Assembly (NCBI GenBank): GCA_016179765.1 | Contig: JACPCL010000030.1 | Coordinates: 1 to 64,000, forward strand | DNA length: 64,000 bases | Source of the DNA: Chloroflexota bacterium | Lineage (GTDB): Bacteria > Chloroflexota > Dehalococcoidia > Lucifugimonadales > JACPCL1 | Direction of reading: 5' to 3' | In this document: in pieces, positions 9,108 through 26,667 of the stretch | How positions within the stretch are numbered: the stretch's first letter is position 1 | Layout of the letters: each line of letters opens with the position of its first letter | Made by a program: the position numbers and the translations under genes | The notes under the pieces: generated by a model | Told to the model about the DNA's origin: nothing | Database searches by the model: none | The model's input: only the letters and a program-made list of their open reading frames with translations

Positions 9108-9121
9108 AGTGCCCCAGTTCT

Positions 9122-9270
9122 ATCAGGCGTCTGAAAAACACCCCCAAACCCCCTCAAGGGGTTCAAGGTATCCGCCTACGGCGGATTGATTTGTATCTTA
9201 GGGACACCCTCAGACTCCCGGCAAAGGGGCTTCGCCCCTCTGCACTCTCCTTTCTTCCGCAGCCTGCTAG
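9122..9270 (-). repeat. MITE-like dispersed repeat, copy 1
   Basis: About 149 bp, nearly identical in reverse complement to the copy at 30517. Shared blocks include GCGGAAGAAAGG, GTGCAGAGGGGC, ATCCGCCTACGGCGGAT, GGGTTTGGGGGTGTTTTTCAG and the flanks CCCTAGCA. One end carries the CTGAAAAA terminal motif and the other the CAGCCTGCTAG motif. Confidence 0.8.
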
Positions 9271-9709
9271 GGATCTGGATCTCAGAGATTGCGGTCTGGT
9301 CCCATGGAACCACGCCAGTATACCCCTGCCTCTGGAAACTGGTCAATCATCCCTTTCCTGCATTCCTGTGGATTTCGGACATCCTTAGCTTGTGCCCAGA
9401 CGATTCATCCTCATGCGACGGATAAAGACTCTGAATACCAGACGAAACACCCATGTCTCCGGGATCCTTCCCATCCAGTCCGAAGGGGCGCTTCCCCTTC
9501 AAGAACGTATCACACGCGCCTGGTGCGTCCGTGGAGCTTTTTCATTACATCTGCTTGACATTCCCAGACGAAAGATGTATTAATATGCTCTAATACTGCG
9601 TCCGTCAGTTCTGTTTCTGGCCTTCTGTACCAGCAGGATAGCTCGTGACCGCCTTGTCGTTGCCTGCCCCAGACCTTGTCGCCGCAAGCCGTAACACAAG
9701 GAGTTTACC
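9271..9709 (+). other. Leader region of the binding-protein gene
   Basis: No gene is supported here. The small ORFs are Pro/His/Ser-rich shadows. The only element I can support is the promoter at 9555-9583; the remaining leader to the ATG is about 120 nt and shares the block ACTGCGTCC with the leader of the CoA-transferase gene. Confidence 0.5.
9555..9583 (+). promoter_or_regulatory. Putative sigma70 promoter for the binding protein
   Basis: Perfect TTGACA, 17-base spacer, TATTAA. The spacer and -10 (GACGAAAGATGTATTAA) closely resemble the promoter at 7750-7778 on the opposite strand (23 of 29 positions). Confidence 0.6.
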
Positions 9710-11513: not shown

Positions 11514-11713
11514 TTGTTGACGGCGCTGTGGGCCAAGGCAACCGTTGGGGAACGCCGGAGCATCCTCCTCTCCATGTTGGACGCCATCTACGTGGGCACG
11601 CTAGAGATTATCACGCTGAGACCTGAAAGCGGCATCGCCCTCGTTGTGGAGCCGAAGCTTGGCTTTGAGAAGAGCGATGCCGCTATCGGGTGTTTCTGGT
11701 GGAGACGGGGGAG
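11514..11713 (+). pseudogene. Possible C-terminal remnant of a large serine recombinase
   Basis: A short open stretch reads ALWAKATVGERRSILLSMLD then AIYVGTLEI, SGIALVVEPKLG and GCFWWRRG. The ERRxLLxxMLDAxYV pattern followed by a basic/hydrophobic tail resembles the extreme C-terminus of large serine recombinases. There is no upstream catalytic domain and an in-frame stop lies just before it, so it would be a broken remnant. The frame runs straight into a copy of the ssrA 3-prime end, the expected place for an ssrA-targeting integrase. This is pattern recognition from a short piece; it could be chance. Confidence 0.4.
11691..11713 (+). repeat. Duplicate of the ssrA 3-prime end (att-like direct repeat, distal copy)
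   Basis: Twenty-three bases are identical to 13893-13915, which include the last 17 bases of the tmRNA gene and six bases beyond it; the core is TGGTGGAGACGGGGGAG. The two copies are in the same orientation and bracket 2.2 kb. This is the layout left by site-specific integration at ssrA. Confidence 0.7.
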
Positions 11714-12064
11714 CCCAGAACTCTACGATAACAATCCGGCCCTGATAGCTGAGGAGCGATGGGAGGCGATGCCGGTGGGCTAGTTGTATGCAGCAGACAG
11801 CAGCCATCCCATCTTTCTGATAGCAGCGGCAATGTTCGCGCAACTGTTCAGCCGCAAGCCACAATCAGTCCCAAGGGAGCGCGCAGTCGTTTGTGAAACC
11901 GCTTGTTCTGTCATTCAGCACATCGAGCTACGGTGAACCAACCACTTTGGGAGAGTTTATTAGGAAGGCATGGCTGAAGAAAGGACTCAGGCAACTGAAC
12001 GCGGCCAACTTCGTAGAGTGTCGATAAGATGACGGTCGCGAATTTGCGAGGACTATGTTCCCTC
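11714..12064. other. Gene-free stretch inside the putative island
   Basis: About 350 bp with no family-like frame in either direction. The listed ORFs (11911-12261, 11928-12242) partly overlap the amidase C-terminus in other frames and show no coding features. I see no hairpin or promoter I would defend. Confidence 0.4.
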
Positions 12065-13426
12065 TTAGGCTTTGGCCAAGGGAGGGGCAGGGAGACGACC
12101 GAGCGCCCTCTCGCACCAGGCCCCGATCTGAAGCAGGCGGTAGTCTTGCTTCGGGGCCGCGACGAACTGAAGCCCAAGAGGCAATCCCTCTGCCGAGAGG
12201 CCTCCATTGATAGTGATGGCTGGGTAACCCAAAAGGCTCCACGGGCCAAGGAGCGAGGCATCCCCGGTGCTTGAGAGGCCCTTGGGGGCAGGCGCCGGTG
12301 CTACCGGCATCAGGAGCGCGTCTACGTCGCGGAAGTTGCTCAAGACTTTCATATACAGTAACTGCCGGATCCGCTGGGCCTGCAAGTAGTAGGTCGCGGG
12401 TATGAGAGAAGCAGGTCTTCTATCTCCCACGCCTGCAGTGCCATCTGGCCTGTTGGCTGGCGCAGGACGATGGGCATTGAACGTCGCCCCTTCTACTCCG
12501 AAGATGATCTGGTGCGCGGGCCAGGCCATGCCGAACATCTCGGGTAAGAGGGCATCACGCACCTCGGCTCCAGTTTCCCGTAGTCGTGCCGCTGCCTCGT
12601 CAACGGCCTCCCGCATCACGGGTTGCGAGCGGTCTGGAAAGAAGTTTCGCACGATTCCAATGCGCGGGGGCCGCAATCCCCAAGAATCCAAGCTAGCCGG
12701 CGGCGCAGGGTCCGGGAGGGTGGTGGGATCACGAGGGTCCGGCCCGGCAATGACAGAGAAGACAAGGGCGATGTCTTCCATGCTGAGGCCGATGATGCTT
12801 GTATGATCCAGGGACCATGCGAACGGATAACAACCGAAGCGGCTGATGCGGCCGTAGGTGGGTTTAAGGGCATCTACCCCGCAGTACGCCGCAGGACGGA
12901 GACCCGACCCTACGGTTTGCTCAGCTAGGGCAACGGGAACCATCCGCGCGCCTACGGCGGCCCCGGAACCGCTGCTGGAACCACCGGCTGTGTGCTCCAA
13001 GTTCCACGGGTTGCGAGTGGGGGGCATCCTACCGCCGACTGGCATATGCGTCTTCCCCACGATAAGCGCCCCGGCGGCTTTCAGTCGCGCCACAGGAGTG
13101 GCGTCTTCGGGTTCGGGCACGGGTGTTGGAAGATCACGAAACCCCGTAGGCATGCCCTGCACATGAAACTCATCCTTTATGCCTACGGGCACACCGTGCA
13201 GCGGGCCACGCAGCCTCCCGGCCGCTGCCTCTGCGGTAAGGGACCTGGCTTCGGCTCGCAGCCTCTGCGCGTCCAGGAAGCTCCATGCTTGCACGCGCTC
13301 TTCCATGTTCGCAATCCGGCTCAGCACCGCCTCGGCGACGTCAGTGGGTGTGAGTTCGCCCTTTGCAACGCCATCGGCGATGGCGCCTACCCCTAGTTCA
13401 ATGATTTGAGAAATGGTGAGCGTCAT
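12065..13426 (-). CDS. Amidase signature family hydrolase
   Basis: A 453-residue amidase-signature enzyme. The catalytic Lys is in VPVGIKDEF (residue 84), the Gly/Ser-rich stretch is AGGSSSGSGAAVGA (about 147-160), and the nucleophilic Ser is in TVGSGLRPAA (about 174, compare TGGSIR in most members). The C-terminal LGYPAITINGGLSAEGLPLG block is typical. Such enzymes hydrolyse aliphatic or aromatic amides, or act as subunits in AtzE- or GatA-type complexes. The gene directly upstream encodes a GatC-like small protein, which favours a two-subunit amidase. Both genes lie between the two ssrA-derived repeats. The natural substrate is unknown. Confidence 0.88.
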   Translation of the reverse strand: MTLTISQIIELGVGAIADGVAKGELTPTDVAEAVLSRIANMEERVQAWSFLDAQRLRAEARSLTAEAAAGRLRGPLHGVPVGIKDEFHVQGMPTGFRDLPTPVPEPEDATPVARLKAAGALIVGKTHMPVGGRMPPTRNPWNLEHTAGGSSSGSGAAVGARMVPVALAEQTVGSGLRPAAYCGVDALKPTYGRISRFGCYPFAWSLDHTSIIGLSMEDIALVFSVIAGPDPRDPTTLPDPAPPASLDSWGLRPPRIGIVRNFFPDRSQPVMREAVDEAAARLRETGAEVRDALLPEMFGMAWPAHQIIFGVEGATFNAHRPAPANRPDGTAGVGDRRPASLIPATYYLQAQRIRQLLYMKVLSNFRDVDALLMPVAPAPAPKGLSSTGDASLLGPWSLLGYPAITINGGLSAEGLPLGLQFVAAPKQDYRLLQIGAWCERALGRLPAPPLAKA

Positions 13427-13442
13427 CTGGCCCTCCTCGCGC

Positions 13443-13658
13443 CTAAGATGTCATACCAAACGATGCCGCCGAGTGCGGAAAGTAAAGCGGCTCCACGTCT
13501 TCCGGGACTTCCGCCGCGCTGACTGCTGCCATCGCCTCAGCCAAAGACCGGAGCTGTGTCTCCATCGCACGCGCCGCTTCTGCACCCCAGAGCGCAATCG
13601 CCTGGTTTGTCAGCACAGTTAAGGCCTCGTCCTTCGTCACCTTTGGGTGTAATCGCAT
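13443..13658 (-). CDS. GatC/AtzG-like small amidase partner
   Basis: A 71-residue acidic helical protein ending LAEAMAAVSAAEVPEDVEPLYFP. The pattern of a helix followed by an Asp-Val-Glu-Pro segment resembles GatC and AtzG, which embrace an amidase-signature subunit. It lies 16 bp upstream of the amidase on the same strand, the arrangement seen for atzG-atzE pairs. The functional link is inferred from position and shape; sequence similarity is weak at this length. Confidence 0.55.
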   Translation of the reverse strand: MRLHPKVTKDEALTVLTNQAIALWGAEAARAMETQLRSLAEAMAAVSAAEVPEDVEPLYFPHSAASFGMTS

Positions 13659-13820
13659 TTGTACATCCCTCTACTGCCATCATGAGATGGTACGGTTGTA
13701 CTGCGGGAGATCTTGCCGCCGCCTCCCTTGCCGTAGGGAACACTAGCCGGCGGATGTATTCTAACACACAGAAGTCTCTGCCCAAGCCTACGACATTCCG
13801 CGACCCGATAGCCAGATGAC

Positions 13821-13849
13821 AAAAAAACACCTCTGGGACGCGCCAGAGG
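13821..13849 (-). terminator. Rho-independent terminator of ssrA
   Basis: On the minus strand CCTCTGG-CGCGTC-CCAGAGG forms a 7-bp stem with a 6-base loop, followed by TGTTTTTTT. It lies about 50 bp after the tmRNA 3-prime end and would stop ssrA transcription before the amidase pair. Confidence 0.8.
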
Positions 13850-13892
13850 CGTTCATCTCCATAGGGCCTCCTCGGAAGGTGAGCCCCGGATA

Positions 13893-13915
13893 TGTTTCTG
13901 GTGGAGACGGGGGAG
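13893..13915 (+). repeat. ssrA 3-prime end direct repeat (gene-proximal copy)
   Basis: The chromosomal copy of the 23-bp direct repeat. It contains the 3-prime acceptor strand and CCA of tmRNA (minus strand) and matches 11691-11713 exactly. Confidence 0.7.
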
Positions 13916-14251
13916 AGTTGAACTCCCCGTCCAGAAGATACTCTACGCGGATATGCTACAGGCGTGTCCAGCTTTTAGTGTCTCGCCAGGATGGTGCTCC
14001 GCCGGCGGGATACCCACCCTCGCCAGCCGAAGGTCTTAGGCCCTGCCCATCGGCGTCAGCAGGACAGCACTCCGATTTGAAGTCGCCTGCTCCTTACCCT
14101 CGGAGGTAGGCTTGGGCAGACGTAGCCGCCTTAGGCGGCTAGAGCCAGTTGAGGCTTGGCGTTTACTGTTTTGCCGCCGGTTTAACGAGGTGTGACGGCG
14201 CCTCGGCCTGCAATCCGGCAGAGTCATCCCCTGTCGAACCCACGCGTCCCC
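13899..14251 (-). ncRNA. ssrA: Transfer-messenger RNA (tmRNA)
   Basis: This 353-nt gene is not in the ORF track. The 5-prime end reads GGGGACGCGTGGGTTCGACA, the usual tmRNA start, and the 3-prime end is CGTCTCCACCA. The two form a 7-bp acceptor stem with a G-U at the third pair, as in alanine tRNA. The T-arm GGGAG-TTCAACT-CTCCC is intact. The tag reading frame ends NAKPQLALAA-stop (stop at 14131-14133), probably starting at a GGC codon as GGKTVNAKPQLALAA or one residue shorter. It rescues stalled ribosomes with SmpB, whose gene is at 28551. A TATAAT lies just upstream and a terminator downstream. Confidence 0.95.
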
Positions 14252-14261
14252 TTATGCACCC

Positions 14262-14267
14262 ATTATA
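14262..14267 (-). promoter_or_regulatory. -10 element of the ssrA promoter
   Basis: A perfect TATAAT on the minus strand ends 10 bases before the mature tmRNA 5-prime end. I do not see a good -35 hexamer at the expected distance. Confidence 0.5.
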
Positions 14268-14376
14268 CCATCAGGCGGCTCCCTGTTGGGAAGCAGCTAG
14301 CCAGCCCCAACATCACCACACCCTCCGGAACTCCTCGCCCGCATCCCAACTCTGGCCTAGCAATCAAACCCATGCG

Positions 14377-14404
14377 TTGCCTGGCGCCTTTGAAGGACTA
14401 TAAT
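14377..14404 (+). promoter_or_regulatory. Putative promoter of the histidine kinase operon
   Basis: TTGCCT, 16-base spacer, TATAAT, about 45 bp before the GTG start of the kinase. It is divergent from the ssrA promoter. Confidence 0.5.
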
Positions 14405-14449
14405 AGCCCCGGATGAACGACGGCGCCTTTCATAGCGAGGAGAGTTCAC

Positions 14450-16924
14450 GTGAGGGTGAATTCCTATTCAGCGATGCTGCGCAAGTTTCAGCGCCTCAAT
14501 CTCTGGCCCAGGCTGGCAATAGCTGTAAGCCTGGGCTTCCTCCTCCTGTTTGGCGTATTCAGCCTGCTGAGCCTGCGGGCGGTGAACGATAGCACAGACC
14601 GCATTCTTCAAGAGAGACTCGTGATTGCCCAGATGGCGGCGCGAGAGATAGACGGCCTCCTGGAGCGGAGCTTCTACGAGCTGGAGAAGGCCACGGAGTT
14701 CGCCGCCTTCAATCCGCAGGCTCCTTCCCTCGGAGAAGAGTACCACATGCTGGCCCACTCCTACGGGCGCATTGGGACGCTGTCTCTGGGGGTCCATTTC
14801 CTAGATGCTCAGGGACGAGTGGTGCTCTCTGAGCCTCCTGACAGGCTGCCCCAGGGTGCTGATCTCTCCACGGAGAACCATGTTCGTCAGGTGATACAGA
14901 CGCGCAGCCGAAGCGTCTCTGACCCTTTTGTTGACCCGGCCACCAGCAGACCCGCCGTGGCCCTCACGATTCCCATATTTGCTCCTGACGGCGCCCTCAT
15001 CTCTTTGCTCACTGGCCTCATTGACCTCTCCAGCGTAGAGGTGATTAGCCCCTTGGAACACGCCCGCGACCTGGGGCACACCGGCCATGCGGAACTGGTG
15101 GATAGCAGGGGGCTCGTCGTCGCCGCTACCGGCGGCGGCGGTTTTCTGAAACCCGGCGAGCACCTCTCCTATTACCTGAAAAGGTTCAAAGAAGGGGGGC
15201 CCGGGGTAGAGAACGTGCCCTATGTCCCCTGGCATCCCTTGCCAGAGGGCGTCAACGCGGGCAAGCACGTCATGGCCTTCGCACCCCTCACTTCAGCCCC
15301 TTGGGGACTTTCCGTTGGGGGCACAGACTCCGAAACCTTCGCGCCAGCGAGGAAACTACGAAACACCATTTTCCTGGCCGGAGCGCTCACACTTGCCTTC
15401 TTATGGGTCTTGACATTGATCGGCGCTAGGCTCCTGGTCCGTCCTGTGCGCGCCCTGACGACAGCAGCCCAACGGATGACCTCTGGGAATCTGGGCGAGT
15501 CTATCAAGGTGCCAGAAGGAGGAGAGATAGGCGTTTTAGGTGAGAGCCTGGAGGCCATGCGGGTACAACTCAGGTCTTCCCTGGACCAGGTGCGAAGGTG
15601 GGGGGAGGAGCTGGAGGTGAAAGTCGCCCAGCGAACGGAGGAGCTGGCGGCTCGGAACCGCCAGTTGGCCGCCGTGTCCGCCGTTGCCACCGCAGCCAAC
15701 GAGATCCGAGACCAGGATGGGATGCTGAATCGCTGCTTGGAGGTTGTCCTAGAGCATACACGAATGGATGCGGCAGCCATCCGCCTCTTGGATGGGGCCA
15801 GCAACCACCTGGTCGTAGCCGGCGCCAAGGGAGACTATTTGGACCTGCCCTGCGCCAACCAAGCTGTGGGTCTCCACGAGTGCCCCTGTGGCTACGTAGC
15901 ATCCAACGGTATCCCCCTGTACCTTGGTCATGAGGAGCGCCAGCGCTTCCAGCCTGTGTGCCAAGCACCCCTCCACCACGCCGTATCTGTGCTGCCCCTG
16001 AAATCCCCAAAGGGAGTCCTGGGGGTGCTGTACCTATCTCGTGGCCAAGGGGTCGTGCCAAGTTCTGAGGAGCGCAACACCCTGGCCGCCATCTGCAACC
16101 AGATAGCGGTCGCCATTGAAAGCGCAAATCTGCTCGGCGAGTTGCGTCGGGTGGAGGCTCAGCGAGAACTGGACCGGATCAAGGCCGAGTTTATCTCCGC
16201 CATCTCCCACGAGCTGCGGACGCCCCTGGGGTTCATCAAGGGGTATGCTACCACCTTGTTGAGAGACGATATATCGGTAGACCCCGCCACGCGCCAGGAG
16301 TTCTTGCAGGTCATTGACGAGGAGTCAACCAAGCTCCAGCGCATGATTGACGAATTGCTGGACGCTTCCCGCCTACAGGCGGGAAGGCTCCAAATGGACC
16401 GCACCAGTGTCAGCTTAAGAGGCCTGTTAGAGGCCGCCCTGCACAGAGCCACCCCCGGCCTTCAACAGGCTGGCCACGCCCTTGAAGTCACCTTACCCAC
16501 AGAAAGCACTACCGTCCTGGCCGATGCAGGCAGGATTGAGCAAGTGCTACATAACCTGCTGGACAACGCCGCCCGCTATTCAGACCCCGGCTCCCCTATT
16601 GAGGTAGCAGCCACGGTGAGTGAGCGGCGCGTCTTCGTCAGCGTTAAGGACCACGGCGATGGTATTTCAACCCATGAGCTGGAACGGGTCTTTGAGCCGT
16701 TCTACCGAGGAGAAAACTCACGCCGGCGAGGCGCCTGGGGCGCCGGCCTCGGCCTCGCCATATGCAAAGGTATCGTTGAGTCCCACGGCGGTCATCTGGG
16801 GGTGGAAAGCACCCCGGGCGCGGGAAGCACCTTCCTCTTCACCCTTCCTCTGGCAGAACGGGCTGAAGCGGAGGGTACGGAGCAAGAGCTCGCCAGCACG
16901 GTCATGAAAAAGGGAGAGGGATGA
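14450..16924 (+). CDS. Membrane sensor histidine kinase (Cache-HAMP-GAF-HisKA-HATPase)
   Basis: An 824-residue hybrid-input kinase. Order of parts: first membrane helix about 20-42, an extracytoplasmic dCache-like sensor about 45-300, second membrane helix about 305-328, HAMP to about 380, coiled coil, GAF about 415-560, HisKA with the phosphoacceptor His587 in ISHELRTPL, and HATPase with NLLDNAARYS, KDHGDGIS and WGAGLGLAICKGIVESHGG. The GAF domain has a Cys cluster (LPCANQ, HECPCGYV, QPVCQAP) that could bind a metal or sense redox state. Start is GTG after GAGGAGAG. It overlaps the regulator by ATGA, so the two are translated together. It probably controls the redox genes downstream. Confidence 0.92.
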   Translation: MRVNSYSAMLRKFQRLNLWPRLAIAVSLGFLLLFGVFSLLSLRAVNDSTDRILQERLVIAQMAAREIDGLLERSFYELEKATEFAAFNPQAPSLGEEYHMLAHSYGRIGTLSLGVHFLDAQGRVVLSEPPDRLPQGADLSTENHVRQVIQTRSRSVSDPFVDPATSRPAVALTIPIFAPDGALISLLTGLIDLSSVEVISPLEHARDLGHTGHAELVDSRGLVVAATGGGGFLKPGEHLSYYLKRFKEGGPGVENVPYVPWHPLPEGVNAGKHVMAFAPLTSAPWGLSVGGTDSETFAPARKLRNTIFLAGALTLAFLWVLTLIGARLLVRPVRALTTAAQRMTSGNLGESIKVPEGGEIGVLGESLEAMRVQLRSSLDQVRRWGEELEVKVAQRTEELAARNRQLAAVSAVATAANEIRDQDGMLNRCLEVVLEHTRMDAAAIRLLDGASNHLVVAGAKGDYLDLPCANQAVGLHECPCGYVASNGIPLYLGHEERQRFQPVCQAPLHHAVSVLPLKSPKGVLGVLYLSRGQGVVPSSEERNTLAAICNQIAVAIESANLLGELRRVEAQRELDRIKAEFISAISHELRTPLGFIKGYATTLLRDDISVDPATRQEFLQVIDEESTKLQRMIDELLDASRLQAGRLQMDRTSVSLRGLLEAALHRATPGLQQAGHALEVTLPTESTTVLADAGRIEQVLHNLLDNAARYSDPGSPIEVAATVSERRVFVSVKDHGDGISTHELERVFEPFYRGENSRRRGAWGAGLGLAICKGIVESHGGHLGVESTPGAGSTFLFTLPLAERAEAEGTEQELASTVMKKGEG

Positions 16925-17619
16925 TGTCGGAAGAGCGCATCCTGGTAGTAGACGATGAACCACGCTACCTGCGCCTCATCCGCTTCAATCTGGAGACGGC
17001 GGGCTATCGTGTGACGGGCGCCGCCACGGGCGAGGAGGCCCTGGTCCTCTTAGCCGACTACCCCCCAGAGCTGGTAGTCCTGGATATCATGCTCCCGGGC
17101 CAAGATGGCTTTGAGGTATGCACCCGCATCCGGAAGGTATCAGACGTGCCCATCATCATGCTGACCGCCAGGGGCGCCGAGGCGGACAAGGTGAAAGGGC
17201 TACGCCTTGGGGCCGATGATTACGTGGTGAAGCCCTTCTCCGCCCAGGAGCTCCTGGCCCGAGTGGAGGCAGTCCTGCGCCGGGCTCGCTCAGCCGAAAC
17301 GCCTGGCCTGCAGACCCCCTTCGCCATAGGCGCCCTGCGGGTGGACTTCCTGACCAGAAAGGTCACGATGGGGGAGCGGGAGGTACGGCTATCTCCCACC
17401 GAATACCGGGTCCTCCGTTATCTCGCCCTTAATGCCGGCAAAGTAGTCACCCAGGACGACCTGTTGGAGAAGGTCTGGGGAGCAGGTTACCGGGGCGAAC
17501 ACGAGGTGCTGCGGGTCACCGTATGGCGACTGCGTCAACGGCTAGAGGACGACCCGCAACATCCGCGATTCATCGTCACTGTCCCCGGAGTGGGCTATCT
17601 CCTGGAAAGTCCCACGTAA
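16921..17619 (+). CDS. OmpR/PhoB-family response regulator
   Basis: A 232-residue regulator. The receiver domain has the acidic pair in VVDDEP, the phosphoacceptor Asp55 in LVVLDIMLPGQDG, the Thr in IIMLTARG and the Lys in DDYVVKPFS. The C-terminal winged helix contains LSPTEYRVLRYLALNAGKVV and the recognition-helix region EVLRVTVWRLRQRLEDDP. It partners the kinase immediately upstream (4-base overlap). A terminator follows at 17645, and a set of 11-bp phased repeats typical of OmpR-type sites lies before the next gene, so it is likely to act on the cupredoxin/cytochrome genes. Confidence 0.93.
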   Translation: MMSEERILVVDDEPRYLRLIRFNLETAGYRVTGAATGEEALVLLADYPPELVVLDIMLPGQDGFEVCTRIRKVSDVPIIMLTARGAEADKVKGLRLGADDYVVKPFSAQELLARVEAVLRRARSAETPGLQTPFAIGALRVDFLTRKVTMGEREVRLSPTEYRVLRYLALNAGKVVTQDDLLEKVWGAGYRGEHEVLRVTVWRLRQRLEDDPQHPRFIVTVPGVGYLLESPT

Positions 17620-17644
17620 AGACCTGCTGCCGCCTCGGATGGGT

Positions 17645-17672
17645 GGGGAGCTCAGGGAGCTCCCCTCTTTTT
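17645..17672 (+). terminator. Rho-independent terminator after the two-component genes
   Basis: GGGGAGCTC-AGG-GAGCTCCCC forms a perfect 9-bp stem followed by TCTTTTT, 26 bp after the regulator stop codon. Confidence 0.85.
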
Positions 17673-17716
17673 ACGACTGCTGCAGTATTCCATGCCCTTG
17701 CTAAGGTGACCTCTCC

Positions 17717-17758
17717 CCCGTAGTCCCCCTCCCCGCGATGGGGAGGGGGGACTACGGG
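17717..17758. repeat. Long C-rich/G-rich hairpin
   Basis: CCCGTAGTCCCCCTCCCC pairs with GGGGAGGGGGGACTACGGG with one bulged base and a GCGAT-type loop. It resembles the C-rich/G-rich palindromes found in other intergenic regions of this window. It has no U tract, so a second terminator is less likely. Confidence 0.5.
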
Positions 17759-17768
17759 TCTAAAAGGC

Positions 17769-17821
17769 TGTAACGGACCTGTTACGGCCTTTGCCGTCCT
17801 TGTAACGGAACCGAAACGACT
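17769..17821 (+). promoter_or_regulatory. Phased 11-bp repeats, likely response-regulator binding box
   Basis: TGTAACGGACC is followed directly by TGTTACGGCCT, then by a degenerate unit, TGTAACGGAAC and CGAAACGACTC. Units start at 17769, 17780, 17801 and 17812, so they lie on the same face of the helix. OmpR/PhoB-type regulators bind such 11-bp direct repeats. The box sits about 65 bp before the first cupredoxin gene and downstream of the regulator gene. Confidence 0.5.
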
Positions 17822-17883
17822 CCTTGTGCTATTCATATAGAAGGAAATCTATTTCTCGGCTCAGCCGGAAGAAGGGAGAGGGA

Positions 17884-18492
17884 ATGAACAAAGGACCGCA
17901 CTATCTGCTTTTTGGAGGAGGGATAGCTGTTTTGCTCCTGGCGGCTGTCGCCTGCACGGACATCAAGCCCGTGGAGGACAGGGTCGGGGCCGCGGAGCAG
18001 AGCATCGCCGCAGCTCAGGCGAAGCTGACCAGTCTGGAAGGCAAGGTGGGGAAGATCGCAGCGCCAGCGGGAAAGGTCGAATACACTGTGCGCGGCGTGG
18101 AAATCAAAGGCGCTACCAGCACCGACAGCCTGGCAGCGCCGACTAGCGACCCGGCGAAGCTCTCTGACGGCTATCGCTACAAGGGACCTGGAGTATTTGA
18201 GCCGGCCAACCCCAAGAGGTGGGAGGTTTCCACCTACATCTGGACGCCCGGTGCGATAACAGCGCTCCAGGGCGACCAGGTGAACTTGAGGATCTTCATC
18301 ATCAATGGGGACAAACACACCACCTGGGTAGAGGGCCCGGATGGCAAAGAGGTTGTGAAGGAGGAGGTACAGAACCGTGGGCGCGAGTACCTTATGACCT
18401 TCACCGCCTCGCAGGTGGGCACCTACAAGCTCATCTGTAACGAGCACGACCCCACGATGAGGGCGGTCATCACCGCGCTGCCCAGGTCCTAG
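17884..18492 (+). CDS. Lipoprotein cupredoxin (type 1 copper-like)
   Basis: About 202 residues from the ATG at 17884, which has GGGAGAGGG upstream; the listed upstream extension lacks family sequence. A short signal ends in LLAAVAC, so it should be lipid-anchored outside the membrane. A helical, possibly coiled-coil stretch (VEDRVGAAEQSIAAAQAKLT) separates the anchor from a C-terminal cupredoxin domain. Copper ligands are visible: His in GDKHTTW (about 145) and Cys-x2-His-x3-Met in LICNEHDPTM (185, 188, 192). The ligand loop is between amicyanin and plastocyanin in length. It likely carries electrons to or from the membrane oxidoreductase encoded downstream. Confidence 0.82.
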   Translation: MNKGPHYLLFGGGIAVLLLAAVACTDIKPVEDRVGAAEQSIAAAQAKLTSLEGKVGKIAAPAGKVEYTVRGVEIKGATSTDSLAAPTSDPAKLSDGYRYKGPGVFEPANPKRWEVSTYIWTPGAITALQGDQVNLRIFIINGDKHTTWVEGPDGKEVVKEEVQNRGREYLMTFTASQVGTYKLICNEHDPTMRAVITALPRS

Positions 18493-18532
18493 TAAAAGCC
18501 CAGGCTCCATAAGGGAGCCGTTGTGCGAAGGG

Positions 18533-18592
18533 GGCGTCCACCTGGTTTGGCCAGTGATAATTGTCATCTTTCAGGCTGACCAGGTGGACGCC
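18533..18592. repeat. Inverted repeat between the two cupredoxin genes
   Basis: GGCGTCCACCTGGT at 18533-18546 is the exact reverse complement of 18579-18592, with a 32-base spacer. As RNA it would form a 14-bp stem. It could be a processing or attenuation structure, or a regulator-binding site. There is no U tract. Confidence 0.6.
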
Positions 18593-18626
18593 ATGTCCCA
18601 TAGGCTTGGGGAAGCCGGAGGGCTTA

Positions 18627-19145
18627 TTGGCTATTGAACCGTGGATTGCACCCCCTCGCGTGGCTGAAGCAAAGGTGATAACTGCGCTCCCTGGCATGGC
18701 GCTGCTCCTGGCTATCGCCCTTACCCTGGCCGCGTGTGAATATCCTGGAGTAACGCACCCGCTTGCAGCCCAGGCAGCAAGCACCGCCTTAGCAACAGCT
18801 TCCCCTACCCCTACGCCCTCTACGGCCCAGAACCCGGACTCGGGAACACAAGAGCCTCCGCCCCTCACCGGTAAGGCCCAGGTCAGCTTGAAAGACTTCC
18901 GCCTTGACCCCGACCGGGTGACGGTGAAGGCAGGAGCAACCACCTTTGTGCTGAAGAACGAGGGCCGCTACACCCACGACTTTCGCGTGGAGGGCCAAGG
19001 CGTTGATGAAAAAGCCCCCAAAGTTGGACAGGGCAGGACATTTGAATGGCAGATCACCTTGGCGCCGGGCGCCTACCGCATCTCCTGCCCCATCAGCAAC
19101 CACGCCGACCGTGGCATGAGTGGGAGCTTGGAGGTGGCGCCGTGA
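18627..19145 (+). CDS. Second lipoprotein cupredoxin
   Basis: A secreted cupredoxin with signal MALLLAIALTLAAC (lipobox) and a Ser/Thr/Pro linker (TASPTPTPSTAQ). The copper site is complete: His in YTHDFRV, and Cys-x4-His-x4-Met in SCPISNHADRGM. The loop is longer than in the first cupredoxin, so the two probably differ in potential or partner. The start is uncertain: the ORF track begins at a TTG at 18561 with no ribosome site and inside an inverted repeat. A TTG at 18627 has GGAGG five bases upstream and I prefer it. The stop overlaps the GTG start of the next gene. Confidence 0.8.
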   Translation: MAIEPWIAPPRVAEAKVITALPGMALLLAIALTLAACEYPGVTHPLAAQAASTALATASPTPTPSTAQNPDSGTQEPPPLTGKAQVSLKDFRLDPDRVTVKAGATTFVLKNEGRYTHDFRVEGQGVDEKAPKVGQGRTFEWQITLAPGAYRISCPISNHADRGMSGSLEVAP

Positions 19146-20140
19146 CATCCTTTCACGCAAGGCTCAGCAAGGGAAGAAACTGGATGTTCGGCAGGGCGGT
19201 CGAGGGGAGAAAAGCCATGCTGAGACAGCAACTAAGAGAAAATGTCGCCCTCAGGTTCGCTTTAGCGGCTTCGGTGATGTCGCTGACGGTGGTTGTCGTG
19301 GGGGTGGGCATTGCCTATGCCTTGCGGATGCCTATTGAGAGCGCAGTACGAGAGGAGGCGGTGCGTGACACTGTGACAGAGGTCCTGCCCCGCCTCCTGA
19401 AAATGGTCGCACCGCAGGACGTAGCGCAGCCCATAACGGGGGCGTCGTACGAACATCTGGACCGAATGGTCAGGGATTATGCTTTGAGCACCCATGCGGT
19501 GCGTCTGAAGATCTGGAACTCGGAGGGCCTGGTGGTCTATTCCACCCTGGAGTCCCAGGTCGGGGAATCCTACCCTGATAGCGAGGAGTTGCAGGAAGCC
19601 CTGCAGGGGAAAACGGTTTGGGAGGTGAGCCGGGAGACGGAGGCGCCTGAGGAACGTGCCTTCGGAGAGTTGATGGAGATCTACGTGCCTCTGGCCTGGG
19701 AAGCTGGGGCAAAGCCTGCGGGGGTTATGGAGGTGTATCTTGATTATGCCCCCTATTCCCGCCTCCTGACCCTTATCAGGAACGCCATCTTTGGGGCCGT
19801 GGCGCTGGTAGGCGCCAGCGTCATTCTAGCTATGTTCGTGTTGTATCGAACCGGGTACCAGACGATACAAAAGCAGCGAGACGTCGCTCTTCAGCGCCAG
19901 CGAGAGGTGACGGCCCTCAATCACCTCCTGCAGCAGGACCTCGCTCACTACTACGATCTGAAGGGTCGCCTCCTCGGCCTGAGGGCTGAGATAGCGCAAG
20001 ACCCCAGATTCCAGCCCGACGCGGCGCCTGTCTCCGCCCGAGACGCCTGGCTGCTGATGCAGCTCCGCGAGCTGGCGGAGTTCGCGGCGGATATCATGGC
20101 CGCAGAGGAGCAGAAGCAGCCAGAGAGGGACGGCGGCTAG
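19142..20140 (+). CDS. Membrane sensor-like protein without an output domain
   Basis: About 332 residues. Two membrane helices (VMSLTVVVVGVGIAYAL and AIFGAVALVGASVILAMFVLY) flank an extracytoplasmic domain of about 150 residues resembling a Cache sensor (RLKIWNSEGLVVYSTLESQVG). The C-terminal part is a cytoplasmic coiled coil with no HisKA, GGDEF or methyl-accepting segment. The ORF track starts inside the previous gene. A GTG at 19142 overlaps that stop codon (GTGA) and has GGAGG six bases upstream, so I choose it. It may pass a signal to the kinase at 14450 or act as an assembly or scaffold protein; this is inference from position. Confidence 0.7.
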   Translation: MTSFHARLSKGRNWMFGRAVEGRKAMLRQQLRENVALRFALAASVMSLTVVVVGVGIAYALRMPIESAVREEAVRDTVTEVLPRLLKMVAPQDVAQPITGASYEHLDRMVRDYALSTHAVRLKIWNSEGLVVYSTLESQVGESYPDSEELQEALQGKTVWEVSRETEAPEERAFGELMEIYVPLAWEAGAKPAGVMEVYLDYAPYSRLLTLIRNAIFGAVALVGASVILAMFVLYRTGYQTIQKQRDVALQRQREVTALNHLLQQDLAHYYDLKGRLLGLRAEIAQDPRFQPDAAPVSARDAWLLMQLRELAEFAADIMAAEEQKQPERDGG

Positions 20141-20142
20141 AG

Positions 20143-21696
20143 ATGCCCATAGATATCCCTGTCATAGGCGCAAGGTCGGCCGTCTGGATGGCGGCACAGC
20201 TCCATCTCTACTTTGCCGCCTTTGTCTTAGGGGCGCCTATTTTCATCGTGCTGTGCGAGTACCTGGGCCTGCCCCGAGGGCGCTGGGACTGGCGGGTACG
20301 GCTTCCTGCAGCCATTCTTATAAGTGTCTTCGGCCTGGTAGCTGTGGTGTTCGCCCACACCGTTACCGACCGGGTCGTCTTCCTCATGTTCGCGGGCCTT
20401 TTCCTGGCGGTGGTCTTGCTCCTCCGGTCCGGTGGGGATAGTCGTTACGAGCGGCTGGCCCACGAGACCATGAAAGTGGTGACCATTGCTTATAGTTTGA
20501 CGGCCCTGACCGGCGCTGCCTTCGCCTTCTCGCTCATGGGTTCCTACAGCCCCGTGGTCACACACCTCTTTCAGCGTTTCGGGCCGGTCTTCGGTCTCTA
20601 TGTCGCCCTCTTCTTTGTAGAGACCATCGTGATGTACCTCTACTGGTACTCCTGGGAGCCCCTGGCGCAGCGAAAGGGGCTTCACATCTCCCTTGGCGTG
20701 GCGCTCAACCTGGTAGGAACCGTGGTCATGCTCCTCATGAACGCCGTAGGGTCCTACATGCTCACGCCCCCAGCGGGATCAGAGACAGCCACTCTCTGGA
20801 CCCTGGTGAATAACCCTACGTGGACCGGACTGAATCTGCACCGGTTTATCGCCAACGTCACCTTTGGCGGCCTAGTGGTAGCACTGTTCGCTGCCTTCAT
20901 GTTCCTCACCGCCAGGAAAGACGAGGACCGCGTCTTCTACGACTGGATGGGCTTCATCGGCAACTTTATTGGCGTGGCCACTCTGATGCTCCTTCCCTTG
21001 GCAGGCTACATCCTGGCCAAGGAGATCTTCCTCTACGATGCCACCATCGCCACCTTCATGATGGCGGACAAGCTCTCAGGCTTTTTCGTCATCCAAGGCC
21101 TTCTGGTGAGCCTCCTGTTCCTGGGAGCCAACTACTACATGTGGATGAGCATCCGGCGGATCAACGGATCCCAGCTCTACCTGGGTTTCATGCGTCCTAC
21201 CTTCGCCGTGATTTTCGTGGGCACCATCATCTGGGTGACCCCCCAGAGCTTCCTACCAGACCTTACGAGTCCTATCCCCGAAGGCGTTAGCGAGGCGGCT
21301 ATCTTCATTCCTGAGCGGGCTGCCTTTATCGGCCTGATGATGGCCAAAGCTCTTGCCGTAACCGCCATCATCATGTTCACCTTCTTGACTTACATGGTCT
21401 ACCGACGGGCCATGGCACAGGGCTCCATGCGTTGGGGAGAGATCGCGCCTCAAGCCCAATACGCCCTGGTGTTTATTCCCACGGTGGCGGTGTACCTCAT
21501 GGGGCTCATGGGAGCCATCCGAGAGCTGGCCCGCCAGGACTGGCATGTGTACACGGTCCTCCGCGATACCACACCCTACTGGTACACCACGCCCCTGGCC
21601 CACACGAGCATCATGGTAGGTAGTGTGACCCTGGTGTTCTTCACCCTAATGGCCTTCATCTTCTGGGTCGGATTCAACCTGGGCAAGGTGGAGTAA
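20143..21696 (+). CDS. Cytochrome bd-like oxidoreductase subunit I
   Basis: A 517-residue protein with about 13 membrane helices that resembles CydA. The first helix has the haem-ligand-like His21 in AAQLHLYFAAF. A later His in LNLHRFIANVTFGG matches the haem b558 ligand region. ARQDWHVYTVLRDTTPYW resembles the GRQPWxVYxxLRT end of the quinol loop. No CydB gene follows; instead come a cytochrome c and small membrane proteins, as in the cytochrome-bd-like proteins reported from some nitrite oxidisers and related lineages. It starts 2 bp after the previous stop. Function as an O2, NO or other reductase cannot be decided from sequence. Confidence 0.8.
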   Translation: MPIDIPVIGARSAVWMAAQLHLYFAAFVLGAPIFIVLCEYLGLPRGRWDWRVRLPAAILISVFGLVAVVFAHTVTDRVVFLMFAGLFLAVVLLLRSGGDSRYERLAHETMKVVTIAYSLTALTGAAFAFSLMGSYSPVVTHLFQRFGPVFGLYVALFFVETIVMYLYWYSWEPLAQRKGLHISLGVALNLVGTVVMLLMNAVGSYMLTPPAGSETATLWTLVNNPTWTGLNLHRFIANVTFGGLVVALFAAFMFLTARKDEDRVFYDWMGFIGNFIGVATLMLLPLAGYILAKEIFLYDATIATFMMADKLSGFFVIQGLLVSLLFLGANYYMWMSIRRINGSQLYLGFMRPTFAVIFVGTIIWVTPQSFLPDLTSPIPEGVSEAAIFIPERAAFIGLMMAKALAVTAIIMFTFLTYMVYRRAMAQGSMRWGEIAPQAQYALVFIPTVAVYLMGLMGAIRELARQDWHVYTVLRDTTPYWYTTPLAHTSIMVGSVTLVFFTLMAFIFWVGFNLGKVE

Positions 21697-21708
21697 GAAC
21701 TCTCACAC

Positions 21709-22386
21709 ATGTCTCTACACCCTTCAGAGGCCTCTCAGCCAAAACAACCCCTCAGGCCAAAGGTGCGGCTCCCCTCCCTCAAAGGCGGCCTTGCCCTCTT
21801 TTTGGCGCTCCTGCTCCTCATATGGCTGGCTCTTCCCCTTGTGCCAGAGGGGACAGGGCTGCGGTTCGGCACGGGCTACAGAATCTTCTTCACCGCCATG
21901 ACCCTCCTGGGAACCCTCTTTTTCTGGTTCCTCGGAAAGGAGCGTATTCCTTACCCCAGGGGACCGGCGGGGGTCCTCATCAGCCTTACCGCCGTCTACC
22001 TTGTAACAATTGGCCTCCTCGTCCTGGCTGGGGTGGTCTACCCACAGTTCCAGCGACCTCAGCCTGCGGGAGCAGCGGCGCAGGAAGCCGCAGGCCGGGG
22101 CAAGGATCTGTTTTGGAGCGACAACGTGGGCTGCTTCCGGTGCCACTCCGCAGGAGGCAGGGGAGGCGCCCGCGGGCCGGACCTCACCCAGGTTGCTTCC
22201 AGGGCGGGCGCCAGGGTGGCCGGCCTGACAGCCGACCAGTACCTCTTGGAAAAGGTGAGCGCAGGTATGACCTATAGGTTCACCGTTCCCGAGTACGCGC
22301 CTATGATGCCCCCCTTCGGCCAGATACTTTCCGAGGAACAAATTGGGGATCTGGTGGCCTACCTACTGTCGCTAGAAGGAGAATAG
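21709..22386 (+). CDS. Membrane-anchored monohaem cytochrome c
   Basis: A 225-residue protein with three predicted membrane helices (about 27-45, 57-75, 88-110) and a C-terminal class I cytochrome c domain. The haem motif is CFRCH (142-146), and a Met in YAPMMPPFG (199 or 200) is the likely axial ligand. The end SEEQIGDLVAYLLSLEG is typical of small cytochromes c. It follows the bd-like gene by 12 bp and may replace the missing second subunit, linking the quinol site to the cupredoxins outside the membrane. Confidence 0.9.
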   Translation: MSLHPSEASQPKQPLRPKVRLPSLKGGLALFLALLLLIWLALPLVPEGTGLRFGTGYRIFFTAMTLLGTLFFWFLGKERIPYPRGPAGVLISLTAVYLVTIGLLVLAGVVYPQFQRPQPAGAAAQEAAGRGKDLFWSDNVGCFRCHSAGGRGGARGPDLTQVASRAGARVAGLTADQYLLEKVSAGMTYRFTVPEYAPMMPPFGQILSEEQIGDLVAYLLSLEGE

Positions 22387-22403
22387 AAGGCGCGGAGAGG
22401 CAC

Positions 22404-22643
22404 ATGGCAGCGGGACTCAAAGGACGTATCGTGGCGTTGCTGGCGGCTGTGGCCCTGGTGGGTGGAGCAGTGGTGATTCGGGTGTGGCTGGCCGCCACTG
22501 GCGGTTATAGTGCAGGCGGCCTTTCGATATCCCTCAGGGCTATGAGCGCCGTAGCACTCTTCGCCGGACTCTTGCTGGCAGCCCTTGCCGTGGCCTGGCC
22601 CATGCGAAAGCCTGGCGGGCCACCACGACCGGAAGGAGGATAA
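22404..22643 (+). CDS. Small membrane protein
   Basis: 79 residues with two hydrophobic helices (ALLAAVALVGGAVVIRVWLA and VALFAGLLLAALAVAWPM). I do not recognise a family. It lies 17 bp after the cytochrome c gene on the same strand, suggesting a small subunit or assembly factor for the membrane complex. Coding is likely from context and hydrophobic pattern only. Confidence 0.55.
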   Translation: MAAGLKGRIVALLAAVALVGGAVVIRVWLAATGGYSAGGLSISLRAMSAVALFAGLLLAALAVAWPMRKPGGPPRPEGG

Positions 22644-22645
22644 CG

Positions 22646-22747
22646 TGCGGCAAAAACCCTTACGAGACCGGCAGCCTCACGTTCTATTGCACCGTGCCCA
22701 GACACCGGGGCGCAGGTAGCAAGGGAACCCTAAAGGTTACTGAATGA
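22646..22747 (+). pseudogene. C-terminal relic of a third cupredoxin
   Basis: In a frame without any start codon the sequence reads YETGSLTFYCTVPRHRGAGS then KGTLKVTE-stop. This is the C-terminal copper loop and last strand of a plastocyanin-like cupredoxin (compare Cys-x4-His-x4-Met followed by GTLxV). The Met ligand is replaced by Ser. The N-terminal part, including the first His, is missing. It is best read as a truncated gene, or as the trace of a deletion in the assembly. Confidence 0.6.
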
Positions 22748-22765
22748 GCTACAGCAGGCATCACA

Positions 22766-23200
22766 ATGAGCGAAGATAGCGAGTCCCTTCCAAAGACAGC
22801 CACCCAAACCCTGCCATGGAGGACCATCGTGATGGCCCTCGCACTCAGCGTGGCGGGGACCGCTGTCCTGGGCGGGATGTTGTTCCTCCTTCAGCAAAAC
22901 GTGTGGTTGATCGCCATGGGTGGCCTTGCTGCCCTCTTCGGAGCGGGCGTCTATCTGGGCTGGCGGAGCGGCGAGCCGGAGCCACTGTACAGCACGGTAT
23001 TAGCAGTCCTCTACTTTGGGCTGGTCGTGGGCATCCTCTTCGGTGGCGAGCTGGCCGAGGCTTTGCCTGACCCCCTGCCAGGTCTGGCCATTGGCGACTC
23101 TACCTTCTTTTTCGTCTCGCCACTCCTCATGTTGGTCGCCAGCGTGGCTGGCAGCGTCGCGGGAGGACGTTGGCGCAACTCTGGTAGCGGGGGACACTAA
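22766..23200 (+). CDS. Four-helix membrane protein of unknown function
   Basis: 144 residues with about four membrane helices and a short soluble N-terminus (MSEDSESLPKTATQ). It ends in a small Gly/Ser tail. I do not recognise a family. The next gene begins one base after its stop codon, so the two are probably translated together. Its position in the redox block suggests a membrane subunit or assembly factor. Confidence 0.6.
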   Translation: MSEDSESLPKTATQTLPWRTIVMALALSVAGTAVLGGMLFLLQQNVWLIAMGGLAALFGAGVYLGWRSGEPEPLYSTVLAVLYFGLVVGILFGGELAEALPDPLPGLAIGDSTFFFVSPLLMLVASVAGSVAGGRWRNSGSGGH

Positions 23201-23201
23201 G

Positions 23202-24857
23202 TTGTTGAACAAGATTTACGTAGCGGTAGATAACTCACCTCTGAGCGATGCGTGTTGCACCGCGGCCATATCACTGGCGCGGGCTTTCGGCTCCCACGTC
23301 GTGGGAGCTCACGTTTACGCCGCAAGAATGCACGAGCGCCGGTTCCGTCAGTTGGAGGCGACTCTCCCAGAGGACTACCTGGAGGACAATGAGCTAGAGC
23401 GCCAGCGCACCATCCACGATTCCCTCATCTCCCTGGGCCTTCAGCTCATCTCCGACTCGTATCTGGACGCCCTAGAGCGACGTTGCCAGGGAGCAGAGGT
23501 GCCCTTTGCCCGCACTACCTTTGACGGCAAAAACTGGGAGAAGCTCGTGGGGGCGATCAATGGCGGGGGCTACAACCTAGTGATTCTTGGCGCCCGCGGG
23601 CATGGCGCCCTTCGTCCCGACGCCATCGGCAGCGTATGCCTCCGAGTTTTGCGGCGCACGAAAACGGACACCCTGGTCATCAAAGAGCCGGAGGCCTTCC
23701 TGGACGGAGCGGGGCGCGGCATCCTGGTAGCGTTGGATGGCAGCCAGGAAGCCTTTGGCGCCCTCCAGGTTGCCCTGGCCCTAGGAAAGGCCTACCGTCG
23801 GCCCGTGGAAGCGGTTGCCGCCTACGATCCCTACTTTCATTACACCGTGTTCCAAAGCATGGTCCTGGTGCTCTCTCCAGAGGCAGCCAAGGTGTTTCGG
23901 TTCAAGGAACAGGAGCGGCTCCACGAGGAGATCATTGACACGGGGCTGGCGCGCCTCTACCAGACCCATCTGGAGGTGGCGCGGCGCATCGCCGAGGCAG
24001 AGGGCATGAACCTGAAGACAACCCTCCTGGCCGGCCGCGCCGCCGATGAGGTGCTCAAATATGGCGAGAAGGTCAACCCCTGGATGCTCCTTTTGGGCCG
24101 CATCGGGATTCACAGCCAGGAGGAGATGGACATCGGCAGCGTCACCGAGCACCTGGTGCGGACTGCTCCTTGCAACGTGCTGGTGGGAAGTCGGCGTTTC
24201 ATGCCCCCCATGGAGCTGTGGGGGCGCTCCTCCCTGAAGTGGACCGAGGAGGCCAACGCCTCCCTGTCGCGGGTACCCACGGAGTACCAGGGGGCCATGC
24301 GCCTCCTCATCCATCGGCTTGCTCTGGAGCGAGGACATTCGGTGGTAACAGCCTCCCTGGTGAGCGAGGCGGCAGCAAGTCTGAGGCCTGCCAGAGGGGC
24401 CGCCGAGAGCATGCATGAGGCTGCATTGACGGTGGCCCTCCAGGCCCTCCACCCAGAGGCTGGTACGATATACCTGTGTAATGGCTGCGGCCACGCCTCA
24501 CGGGAGATTCGCCCCACCATCTGCCCTGTTTGCAAGGCGCCGGGAGAGGGTTTCCTGACCGTGGAGGCCGCCGAGTTAGAGGCTGCAGCGCGTCGGCAGG
24601 GAGGGGTGGAGGTGGAGGAGGCCTTTGATGGAAGGCGTCTCAGGTGGGCGAGAGCCGCCCTGGGCGCCTTGAGGGCGGTTGACGACCCCGGTCAACGCCG
24701 GCGGATGCGTCTGCGTGTGGAGAAGGAGGCCCGGCTGAAGAAACTATCGGTGATCACGCTGGAGCTCACGCACCATGTCCTGCAAGAAGCCCCAGGAGCA
24801 AATGTCTCACAACCACAACCATCCTTGGACGCCCAAGAGACAGGCAAGACCCCATGA
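23202..24857 (+). CDS. Double universal-stress protein with PCP_red-like domains and a zinc ribbon
   Basis: About 551 residues from a TTG at 23202; the ORF track begins far inside the previous gene. Two USP domains follow each other: KIYVAVDNSPLSDACC to VILGARGHGALRPDAIGS, then ILVALDGSQEAFGALQVAL to GRIGIHSQEEMDIGSVTEHL. A three-helix segment WTEEANASLSRVPTEYQGAM and its sequel match the pattern of the PCP_red domain (PF08369, protochlorophyllide reductase C-terminus). Then comes a zinc ribbon CNGCGH...CPVCKAP and a second, weaker PCP_red-like segment (WARAALGALRAVDD). A soluble redox- or ligand-responsive protein is likely. The downstream radical SAM protein ends in the same type of domain. 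Confidence 0.75.
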   Translation: MLNKIYVAVDNSPLSDACCTAAISLARAFGSHVVGAHVYAARMHERRFRQLEATLPEDYLEDNELERQRTIHDSLISLGLQLISDSYLDALERRCQGAEVPFARTTFDGKNWEKLVGAINGGGYNLVILGARGHGALRPDAIGSVCLRVLRRTKTDTLVIKEPEAFLDGAGRGILVALDGSQEAFGALQVALALGKAYRRPVEAVAAYDPYFHYTVFQSMVLVLSPEAAKVFRFKEQERLHEEIIDTGLARLYQTHLEVARRIAEAEGMNLKTTLLAGRAADEVLKYGEKVNPWMLLLGRIGIHSQEEMDIGSVTEHLVRTAPCNVLVGSRRFMPPMELWGRSSLKWTEEANASLSRVPTEYQGAMRLLIHRLALERGHSVVTASLVSEAAASLRPARGAAESMHEAALTVALQALHPEAGTIYLCNGCGHASREIRPTICPVCKAPGEGFLTVEAAELEAAARRQGGVEVEEAFDGRRLRWARAALGALRAVDDPGQRRRMRLRVEKEARLKKLSVITLELTHHVLQEAPGANVSQPQPSLDAQETGKTP

Positions 24858-25249
24858 AAGAGGTGAGGCACAAGGCCAGAGTGGATGTGGCCCTGATAGC
24901 TATCTACCTGGGCGCCAGCTTGCCCCTCCAGGTATGGTCATTGCTCAACGGGCCGGTCCCCTGGCTCAACTACGGACACGGCTGGGCGAGCACCCCCGCC
25001 TATGGGATTGCCGCTCCCTTGGTTGCCTTCCTCCTGTGGCGGCATAGCCCACGGGCGCGGCTGGCCGCCTACGTCTTCCTGACCTTTGACGCCATGAGGT
25101 CCTTGAGGTTGGCTCACTGGCTTCCCTTGGCTCTAGACCTCGCCATCATTCTCTACCTGCAAACACCGGCCATGCGACACCTCTATCCCTCCATGTGGAG
25201 CCGCTGGGCAGCCCTGCACCTTCCGTGGACGCGGAGCAAGGAGGCATAG
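24854..25249 (+). CDS. Membrane protein of unknown function
   Basis: 131 residues with three to four hydrophobic helices (VDVALIAIYLGASLPLQVW, APLVAFLLW, LAAYVFLTF, LPLALDLAIILYL). The ATG overlaps the previous stop (ATGA), and the stop overlaps the next start, so the gene sits firmly inside the operon. No family is recognised; a partner of the radical SAM protein or of the membrane complex is possible. Confidence 0.6.
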   Translation: MKEVRHKARVDVALIAIYLGASLPLQVWSLLNGPVPWLNYGHGWASTPAYGIAAPLVAFLLWRHSPRARLAAYVFLTFDAMRSLRLAHWLPLALDLAIILYLQTPAMRHLYPSMWSRWAALHLPWTRSKEA

Positions 25250-26526
25250 TGGACTACCACCCACGGATTATCTCCTGGAACATCACCGGGGCTTGCAACC
25301 TTCGCTGCCCCCATTGCTACCTGGATGCGGGCCATCGCTGGAAGGATGAACTCACCACCACGGAAGGACTCCACCTTATTGACCAGATGGCCGAGATTGG
25401 CACAGAGCTCCTTATCCTTACAGGGGGAGAGCCCCTTCTCCGCAAAGACCTTCCGCTCCTGGCTCACCACGCCACGAGTAAAGGCATAAACGTGGTCTTG
25501 GGAACAACGGGGACACTGGTCACCCACCCGGTAGCCAGAACCCTCAAAGATGCGGGGGTAGCAGCCGCTGGAATCAGCATCGACTCCTTGGACCCGGTCA
25601 AGCACGACGCCTTCCGGGGCCTCCCGGGAGCCTGGCAGCGGGCTGTCCAGGGCATACAGGCCTGCCACGAGGAGGGCCTGGAGGTCCTGGTCCACACCAC
25701 CGCTCTGAAAATGAACCAGCAGGAGATCCCAGACATCGTTCGGTTCGCCCAAAACAAGGGAGCGAGGGCCTTTCACCTCTTCTTCCTAGTGTGCACAGGG
25801 CGAGGGGAACGCCTCACCGACCTCTCTCCCCAGGAGTATGAAGACCTTCTCTCCCTTGTCTTGGATACCCAGGAGCGGTACCCAGACATGATGGTGCGGG
25901 CTAGGTGCGCTCCGTACATCGGGAGACTAGCCATAGAGCGAGGAGTGCCGCCCATGGGGAGCGCCGGCTGCCTGGCAGGCGCCAGCTACTGCCGCATCAC
26001 GCCCACCGGGGACGTGACGCCTTGTCCCTACCTACCGACAAAAGCGGGCAACGTCCGGCAGCGCGGCTTCCAGAAGGTCTGGGCCACATCCCCGGCGCTG
26101 ATGCAGCTCAGAACCCCCCACCGACAACTGGGGGGAAAGTGCGGCCAGTGCACCTTCAGCCAGGGCGACGACCCCCTCTGCGTTGGATGCCGGGCCCGGG
26201 CCTTCGCCCTTGCTGGAGATGTCATGGCCGCCGACCCATGGTGCCGCTACCAGCCCAGCGAGGCGCACGGCTCCCACAAAGAAGGGTGGCCTGCTCCTCT
26301 CGTGGCCGTCCAGAAGCCCGCCGAAGAAGCCCAGGTCCCCTGGACCAAAGAGGCGCTGGACCGTGTCCAGCAAGTCCCTTTTTTCATCCGTGGGAGGGTA
26401 AAGCAGGCCGCGGAGGCATACGTCCGCCAGCACAGCCTCTCCCAAGTAACCCCTGAAGTTCTCGCCCACCTGCGTCAGAGGGCATACGGTCCACCATCAT
26501 CGGCGGGTGACCCCCCGGCACGGTGA
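25249..26526 (+). CDS. Radical SAM/SPASM protein, AhbD/NirJ-like, with a C-terminal PCP_red-like domain
   Basis: 425 residues. The GTG at 25249 overlaps the previous TAG by one base and has AAGGAGG five bases upstream. The radical SAM cluster is CNLRCPHC (C16, C20, C23), and LTGGEPLLRKDL is the SAM-binding GGE motif. The SPASM region has many Cys: YCRITPTGDVTPCPY, CGQCTF, LCVGCRARAFA and ADPWC, a pattern seen in AhbD and NirJ, which modify haem precursors. The C-terminus WTKEALDRVQQVPFFIRGRV fits PCP_red. A role in making or inserting a haem-type cofactor for the redox complex upstream is a reasonable inference; peptide modification is the alternative. Confidence 0.83.
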   Translation: MDYHPRIISWNITGACNLRCPHCYLDAGHRWKDELTTTEGLHLIDQMAEIGTELLILTGGEPLLRKDLPLLAHHATSKGINVVLGTTGTLVTHPVARTLKDAGVAAAGISIDSLDPVKHDAFRGLPGAWQRAVQGIQACHEEGLEVLVHTTALKMNQQEIPDIVRFAQNKGARAFHLFFLVCTGRGERLTDLSPQEYEDLLSLVLDTQERYPDMMVRARCAPYIGRLAIERGVPPMGSAGCLAGASYCRITPTGDVTPCPYLPTKAGNVRQRGFQKVWATSPALMQLRTPHRQLGGKCGQCTFSQGDDPLCVGCRARAFALAGDVMAADPWCRYQPSEAHGSHKEGWPAPLVAVQKPAEEAQVPWTKEALDRVQQVPFFIRGRVKQAAEAYVRQHSLSQVTPEVLAHLRQRAYGPPSSAGDPPAR

Positions 26527-26606
26527 CCTAGGAGCCAGACAGAGCTAAGAGCCGCCTTCCAGGGCAAGAGCAGCCATGCATGGCGAGACGCAGGGCTGAA
26601 TAACCA

Positions 26607-26638
26607 GCGAGGCAGGCGTTACAGGACGCCTGCCTCGC
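26607..26638. terminator. Hairpin between convergent genes
   Basis: GCGAGGCAGGCG-TTACAGGA-CGCCTGCCTCGC is a perfect 12-bp stem, between the convergent radical SAM gene and the membrane protein at 26668. It has no U tract on either side, so its strength as a terminator is uncertain. Confidence 0.6.
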
Positions 26639-26667
26639 GTGACAACTCCGCGTTGGGGTACGGCCAA

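Follow-up and report, generated by a model that had tools for sequence, protein, structure and literature searches.

A probable decayed tandem array of ssrA-targeted islands around an amidase gene pair in an uncultured Chloroflexota lineage

The ssrA 3′ end, its direct repeat and the enclosed amidase segment

The analysed stretch of 64,000 nucleotides (in the following termed the window) contains the tmRNA gene ssrA on the minus strand (13899–14251), recognized by ARAGORN and by the Rfam model RF00023 (140.6 bits), with the tag AKPQLALAA, an encoded CCA and a 3′ end that constitutes the integration target discussed below. A 23-mer, TGTTTCTGGTGGAGACGGGGGAG, made up of the terminal 17 nt of the tmRNA gene and the 6 nt that follow, is found on the plus strand both at ssrA itself (13893–13915, ssrA-proximal att copy, including the 6-nt island arm TGTTTC) and at 11691–11713 (distal att copy). 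The two copies agree in 23 of 23 positions, are directly oriented and lie 2202 bp apart from start to start, which bears out the original prediction of a same-orientation repeat of the ssrA end at a distance of 2.2 kb. Within the window no third copy was detected at up to 3 mismatches, the same search yielding 0 in 100 shuffles, and the 19-nt inner part of the 23-mer, searched with up to 2 mismatches, is confined to these two sites in the 2.29 Mb genome. Chance recurrence of the 23-mer, which had been named beforehand as an outcome speaking against an island, was not seen; about 6.5e-8 exact matches are expected by chance across the genome.

The segment bounded by the att copies (11714–13892), which has no integrase left and is referred to below as island B, harbours an amidase of the amidase signature family with an intact frame of 453 residues (12065–13426, minus strand; PF01425, 285.7 bits) and, upstream of it, a partner ORF of 71 residues (13443–13658, minus strand). 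The best NCBIfam match of the amidase is AtzE, with 232 of 461 bits. Its nearest relatives, 69% and 64% identical, stem from other families of the order, and no further homologue reaching 64% was detected among 250 order genomes; no ssrA repeat was found near the relatives in genomes G028 and G071. The 71-residue ORF is conserved beside the same amidase in two other genomes of the order, at loci L111 (56% identity) and L112 (60%), and may resemble small amidase subunits. The anticipated pair of an amidase and a GatC-like partner is thus upheld as to the Pfam Amidase assignment and the conserved small ORF, but not as to the GatC label, since none of the Pfam or NCBIfam models matched the ORF. 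Near the expected catalytic serine the amidase of the window reads TVGSGLRP as compared to TGGSNLRP in a close relative, a replacement which may alter its activity. An intrinsic-terminator-like hairpin (13825–13854, minus strand; fold z −3.15) lies 45 nt beyond the 3′ end of ssrA.

A recombinase remnant and the class-wide attachment sequence

Outside the distal copy, a short frame had been suspected to encode the end of a large serine recombinase running straight into the repeat. A Pfam scan of this frame alone (ORF 11514–11783, plus strand) gave no match, and a family-specific profile was needed. When the window frames were searched by hmmsearch with a profile built from 20 DsiB-type C-termini, the stretch 11517–11702 (plus strand) was recognized as what is left of the C-terminus of a large serine recombinase of the DsiB type (E 5.9e-14). 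The remnant comprises about 60 residues with an 18-residue in-frame gap, reads into the distal att copy and is devoid of the catalytic domain, in line with the predicted broken integrase. It aligns with the intact recombinase of the genus mate G001 at 49% (tblastn, E 2.7e-19), and on the DNA level the positions 11627–11710 are 80% identical to the orthologous distal recombinase arm of a second genus mate, G003. At the ssrA-proximal copy the profile gave a non-significant 13-residue match (E 0.34). A 21-bp inverted repeat, 86% complementary and with a 29-nt loop, is located within the remnant at 11621–11691 and might be what is left of an arm hairpin, lacking the T tract. The source genome (G000) encodes three other large serine recombinases on contigs C14 and C46, away from the ssrA contig, and no 23-mer core was found near them.

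The attachment sequence is not restricted to the window. With up to 1 mismatch, the 23-mer was retrieved from 43 of 393 class genomes, the reversed-pattern control giving 0. The att contexts inspected, window included, comprise 33 ssrA sites and 29 internal sites; a DsiB C-terminus lies upstream of 24 of the former and 12 of the latter, and all recombinase homologues from the class of at least 47% identity with the C-terminus present (14 of 14) end at an ssrA-type core. In Dehalogenimonas formicexedens NSZ-14, with which we equate genome G296 from the agreement of coordinates, exact copies of the 23-mer at 1384280 and 1407199 match both ends of the published ssrA island (1384297–1407259; PMC13390414). 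An internal att site of G110 (L168) contains a sequence agreeing by eye in 14 of 15 positions with TTCAGRSMGMRKCCA, a 15-bp motif which has been reported from the direct repeats of Dehalococcoides.

At the internal sites the arms TGTTTC and GAAACA flank the core, and it is for this reason that the repeat of the window reaches six bases past ssrA. The inner arm TGTTTC is found at both att copies of the window; judged from these comparisons, the six bases past the tmRNA end represent a conserved attachment arm contributed by the islands. The outer arm of the distal copy (11714–11738) gave no recognisable match to a weight matrix for attP arms, about 4.5% of random positions scoring equally, and some genuine-looking internal sites elsewhere score low likewise.

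Probable tandem integration at ssrA and its alternatives

The three genus mates (G001–G003) are represented by incomplete MAGs (77–86%), whose ssrA contigs end inside the array. In G001, an intact recombinase with Resolvase, Recombinase and Zn_ribbon_recom domains runs into ssrA and is neighboured by ParB and Mom; this integration module is not retained at the array of the window, and a Mom gene was not found elsewhere in the source genome. In G003, ssrA is followed by an att site, a decayed recombinase with an ABC-F gene, a further att site and a second recombinase arm. The ABC-F ATPase of this ssrA-proximal island (L043:5582-7498), located beside the decayed recombinase, has Uup as best model. 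In G037 (L049/L163), two att/recombinase ends are arranged in tandem less than 400 bp from ssrA. The recombinase end adjoins ssrA, inside the island, in every intact example. The remnant of the window adjoins the distal copy, outside the amidase segment, and is therefore attributed to a neighbouring island (island A), which implies at least two integrations. We consider it likely that ssrA-specific islands integrated here in tandem and have since decayed, the order being ssrA, att, amidase segment lacking an integrase, att and remnant of the neighbouring island. The scar of an ssrA-targeted island, as originally proposed, is supported by the repeat, the recombinase remnant, the intact ssrA-linked relatives and the class-wide att sequence, and its description as fossil or accreted agrees with the integrase stub and the tandem layouts of G003 and L049.

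The relatives had been expected to offer an empty site lacking the amidase pair and one repeat copy. The amidase pair is indeed missing from the three incomplete genus mates, in which no close amidase homologue was detected (at most 41% identity), but a truly empty ssrA site was not found in these MAGs; instead, G003 carries a different island between ssrA and the distal recombinase arm. Fixation of the amidase pair together with both repeats in all lineages, an outcome that would have argued against an island, was not seen.

Mechanistically, a DsiB-type large serine recombinase would recombine the ssrA 3′ end with the attP site of a circular island, and the gene end would be kept intact because the island attP carries the same 17–20 nt. 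The recombinase gene would thereby come to lie at the ssrA-side edge of the island, in convergent orientation to ssrA and with its last codons crossing the att core. We infer that the older island A integrated first and that island B followed at the ssrA att site, pushing the end of island A outward. Of island A, only about 190 bp from the 3′ end of the recombinase gene persist, adjoining the distal att copy. Today, island B would correspond to the 2.2-kb amidase segment with the amidase pair as its presumable cargo and the integrase gone, and mobility of the array is not expected unless a related integrase is supplied in trans.

Alternatively, the amidase segment and the recombinase end might belong to one single island, in which the recombinase end came to lie outside the repeats through a rearrangement or a large deletion. 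The presence of just one recombinase remnant and the outer arm of the distal copy, which differs from a normal attP arm, are compatible with this scenario. However, the position of the recombinase end at ssrA and inside the island in all intact examples, as well as its position at the distal copy in the tandem islands of G003 and L049, render it rather unlikely. Still more doubtful is the possibility that the amidase pair and the terminator form the native downstream flank of ssrA and that only the distal recombinase end and the core are island-derived. A native flank would conform to the good predicted ssrA terminator inside the segment and to the lack of any compositional island signal there (GC of 60.4% versus 62% in the window, tetranucleotide rank 37 of 124). 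It is nevertheless hard to reconcile with the absence of the amidase pair from the genus mates and with the island arm TGTTTC at the ssrA-proximal copy; moreover, by recombination logic an integrase end with core precedes ssrA or another island end and not native flank, and island arms often contain terminators of their own. A false joining of two contigs at the 23-bp repeat, conceivable in a MAG of 53 contigs, is highly improbable considering that read assemblies normally use words longer than 23 and that independent genomes (L043, L049) show a matching layout.

Relation to known islands and terminator-like hairpins in the island arms

The proposed decayed array finds its closest counterpart in the ssrA islands of Dehalococcoides with their DsiB integration module, including vcr-GI (McMurdie 2011, PMC3146451), and the link to these islands drawn in the original prediction is substantiated by the shared target, the repeat, the DsiB-type recombinase and the module in G001. 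Common features are the ssrA 3′ end as target, a direct repeat of about 20 bp, a DsiB-type serine recombinase which overlaps att and is convergent with ssrA (in the window a C-terminal stub at the distal copy only), tandem arrays, islands without integration module, and, as far as the intact relative G001 is concerned, a module with ParB and Mom. Among the published islands, the ParB and Mom integration module is present in 16 of 31 and module-less islands are common (PMC3146451). In contrast to the Dehalococcoides islands, the host belongs to an uncultured lineage of another family, the cargo is an amidase pair rather than a reductive dehalogenase, the module has shrunk to a recombinase stub, and G001 showed no second small recombinase (DsiA). 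The dcpA-containing ssrA island of Dehalogenimonas (PMC13390414), which shares the exact 23-mer, differs by its size of 23 kb, intact modules and distinct GC from the 2.2 kb without integrase described here. SCC elements are more distantly comparable; they likewise use a single-copy chromosomal target, and the intact G001 recombinase resembles their CcrB (4.8e-31), yet it remains far under the NCBIfam CcrB cut-off (108 of 900 bits) and the target gene is a different one. The type of integration hotspot is already known and is here encountered in an uncultured Chloroflexota lineage, in which a decayed DsiB/ssrA array with non-dehalogenase cargo can now be placed. Since the att sequence hardly varies among many class genomes, searching for its 23 bases allows such islands to be located.

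A possible new detail is an ssrA terminator borne by the arm of the islands. Terminator-like hairpins with a stem of 7 or more are present in 21 of 35 ssrA-side arms and in 11 of 27 internal arms; shuffling predicts about 0.5, and the control stretches gave 0 of 50. A broader scenario, to which we assign roughly even chances, is that DsiB-type islands use ssrA as a hotspot across much of the class and that each integration brings ssrA a new terminator; the predicted hairpin and T tract would, with the same evenly balanced confidence, reside inside the last codons of the integrase, about 10 nt past the core. McMurdie 2011 (PMC3146451) does not mention terminators in ssrA islands, and none surfaced in the titles and abstracts of further literature, a scope outside of which most subscription papers lie. 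If the scenario is true, the arm terminator would explain the harmlessness of repeated integration beside an important RNA gene.

Several observations concern the wider surroundings of ssrA. The gene order ctpA–smpB–DUF4386-like near ssrA is common to the window and G001, and smpB and the DUF4386-like gene also occur in G003. Between the DUF4386-like gene and ssrA, the window contains about 12 kb of extra genes (14252–26667), among them those for a histidine kinase, a response regulator, a cupredoxin-like protein, a cytochrome and a radical SAM protein, the names being given partly by reading. On the other side, the positions 9118–9272 hold a dispersed element of about 150 bp, of which some 30 copies with 77–94% identity are scattered over the genome and shorter copies are found in the genus mates.
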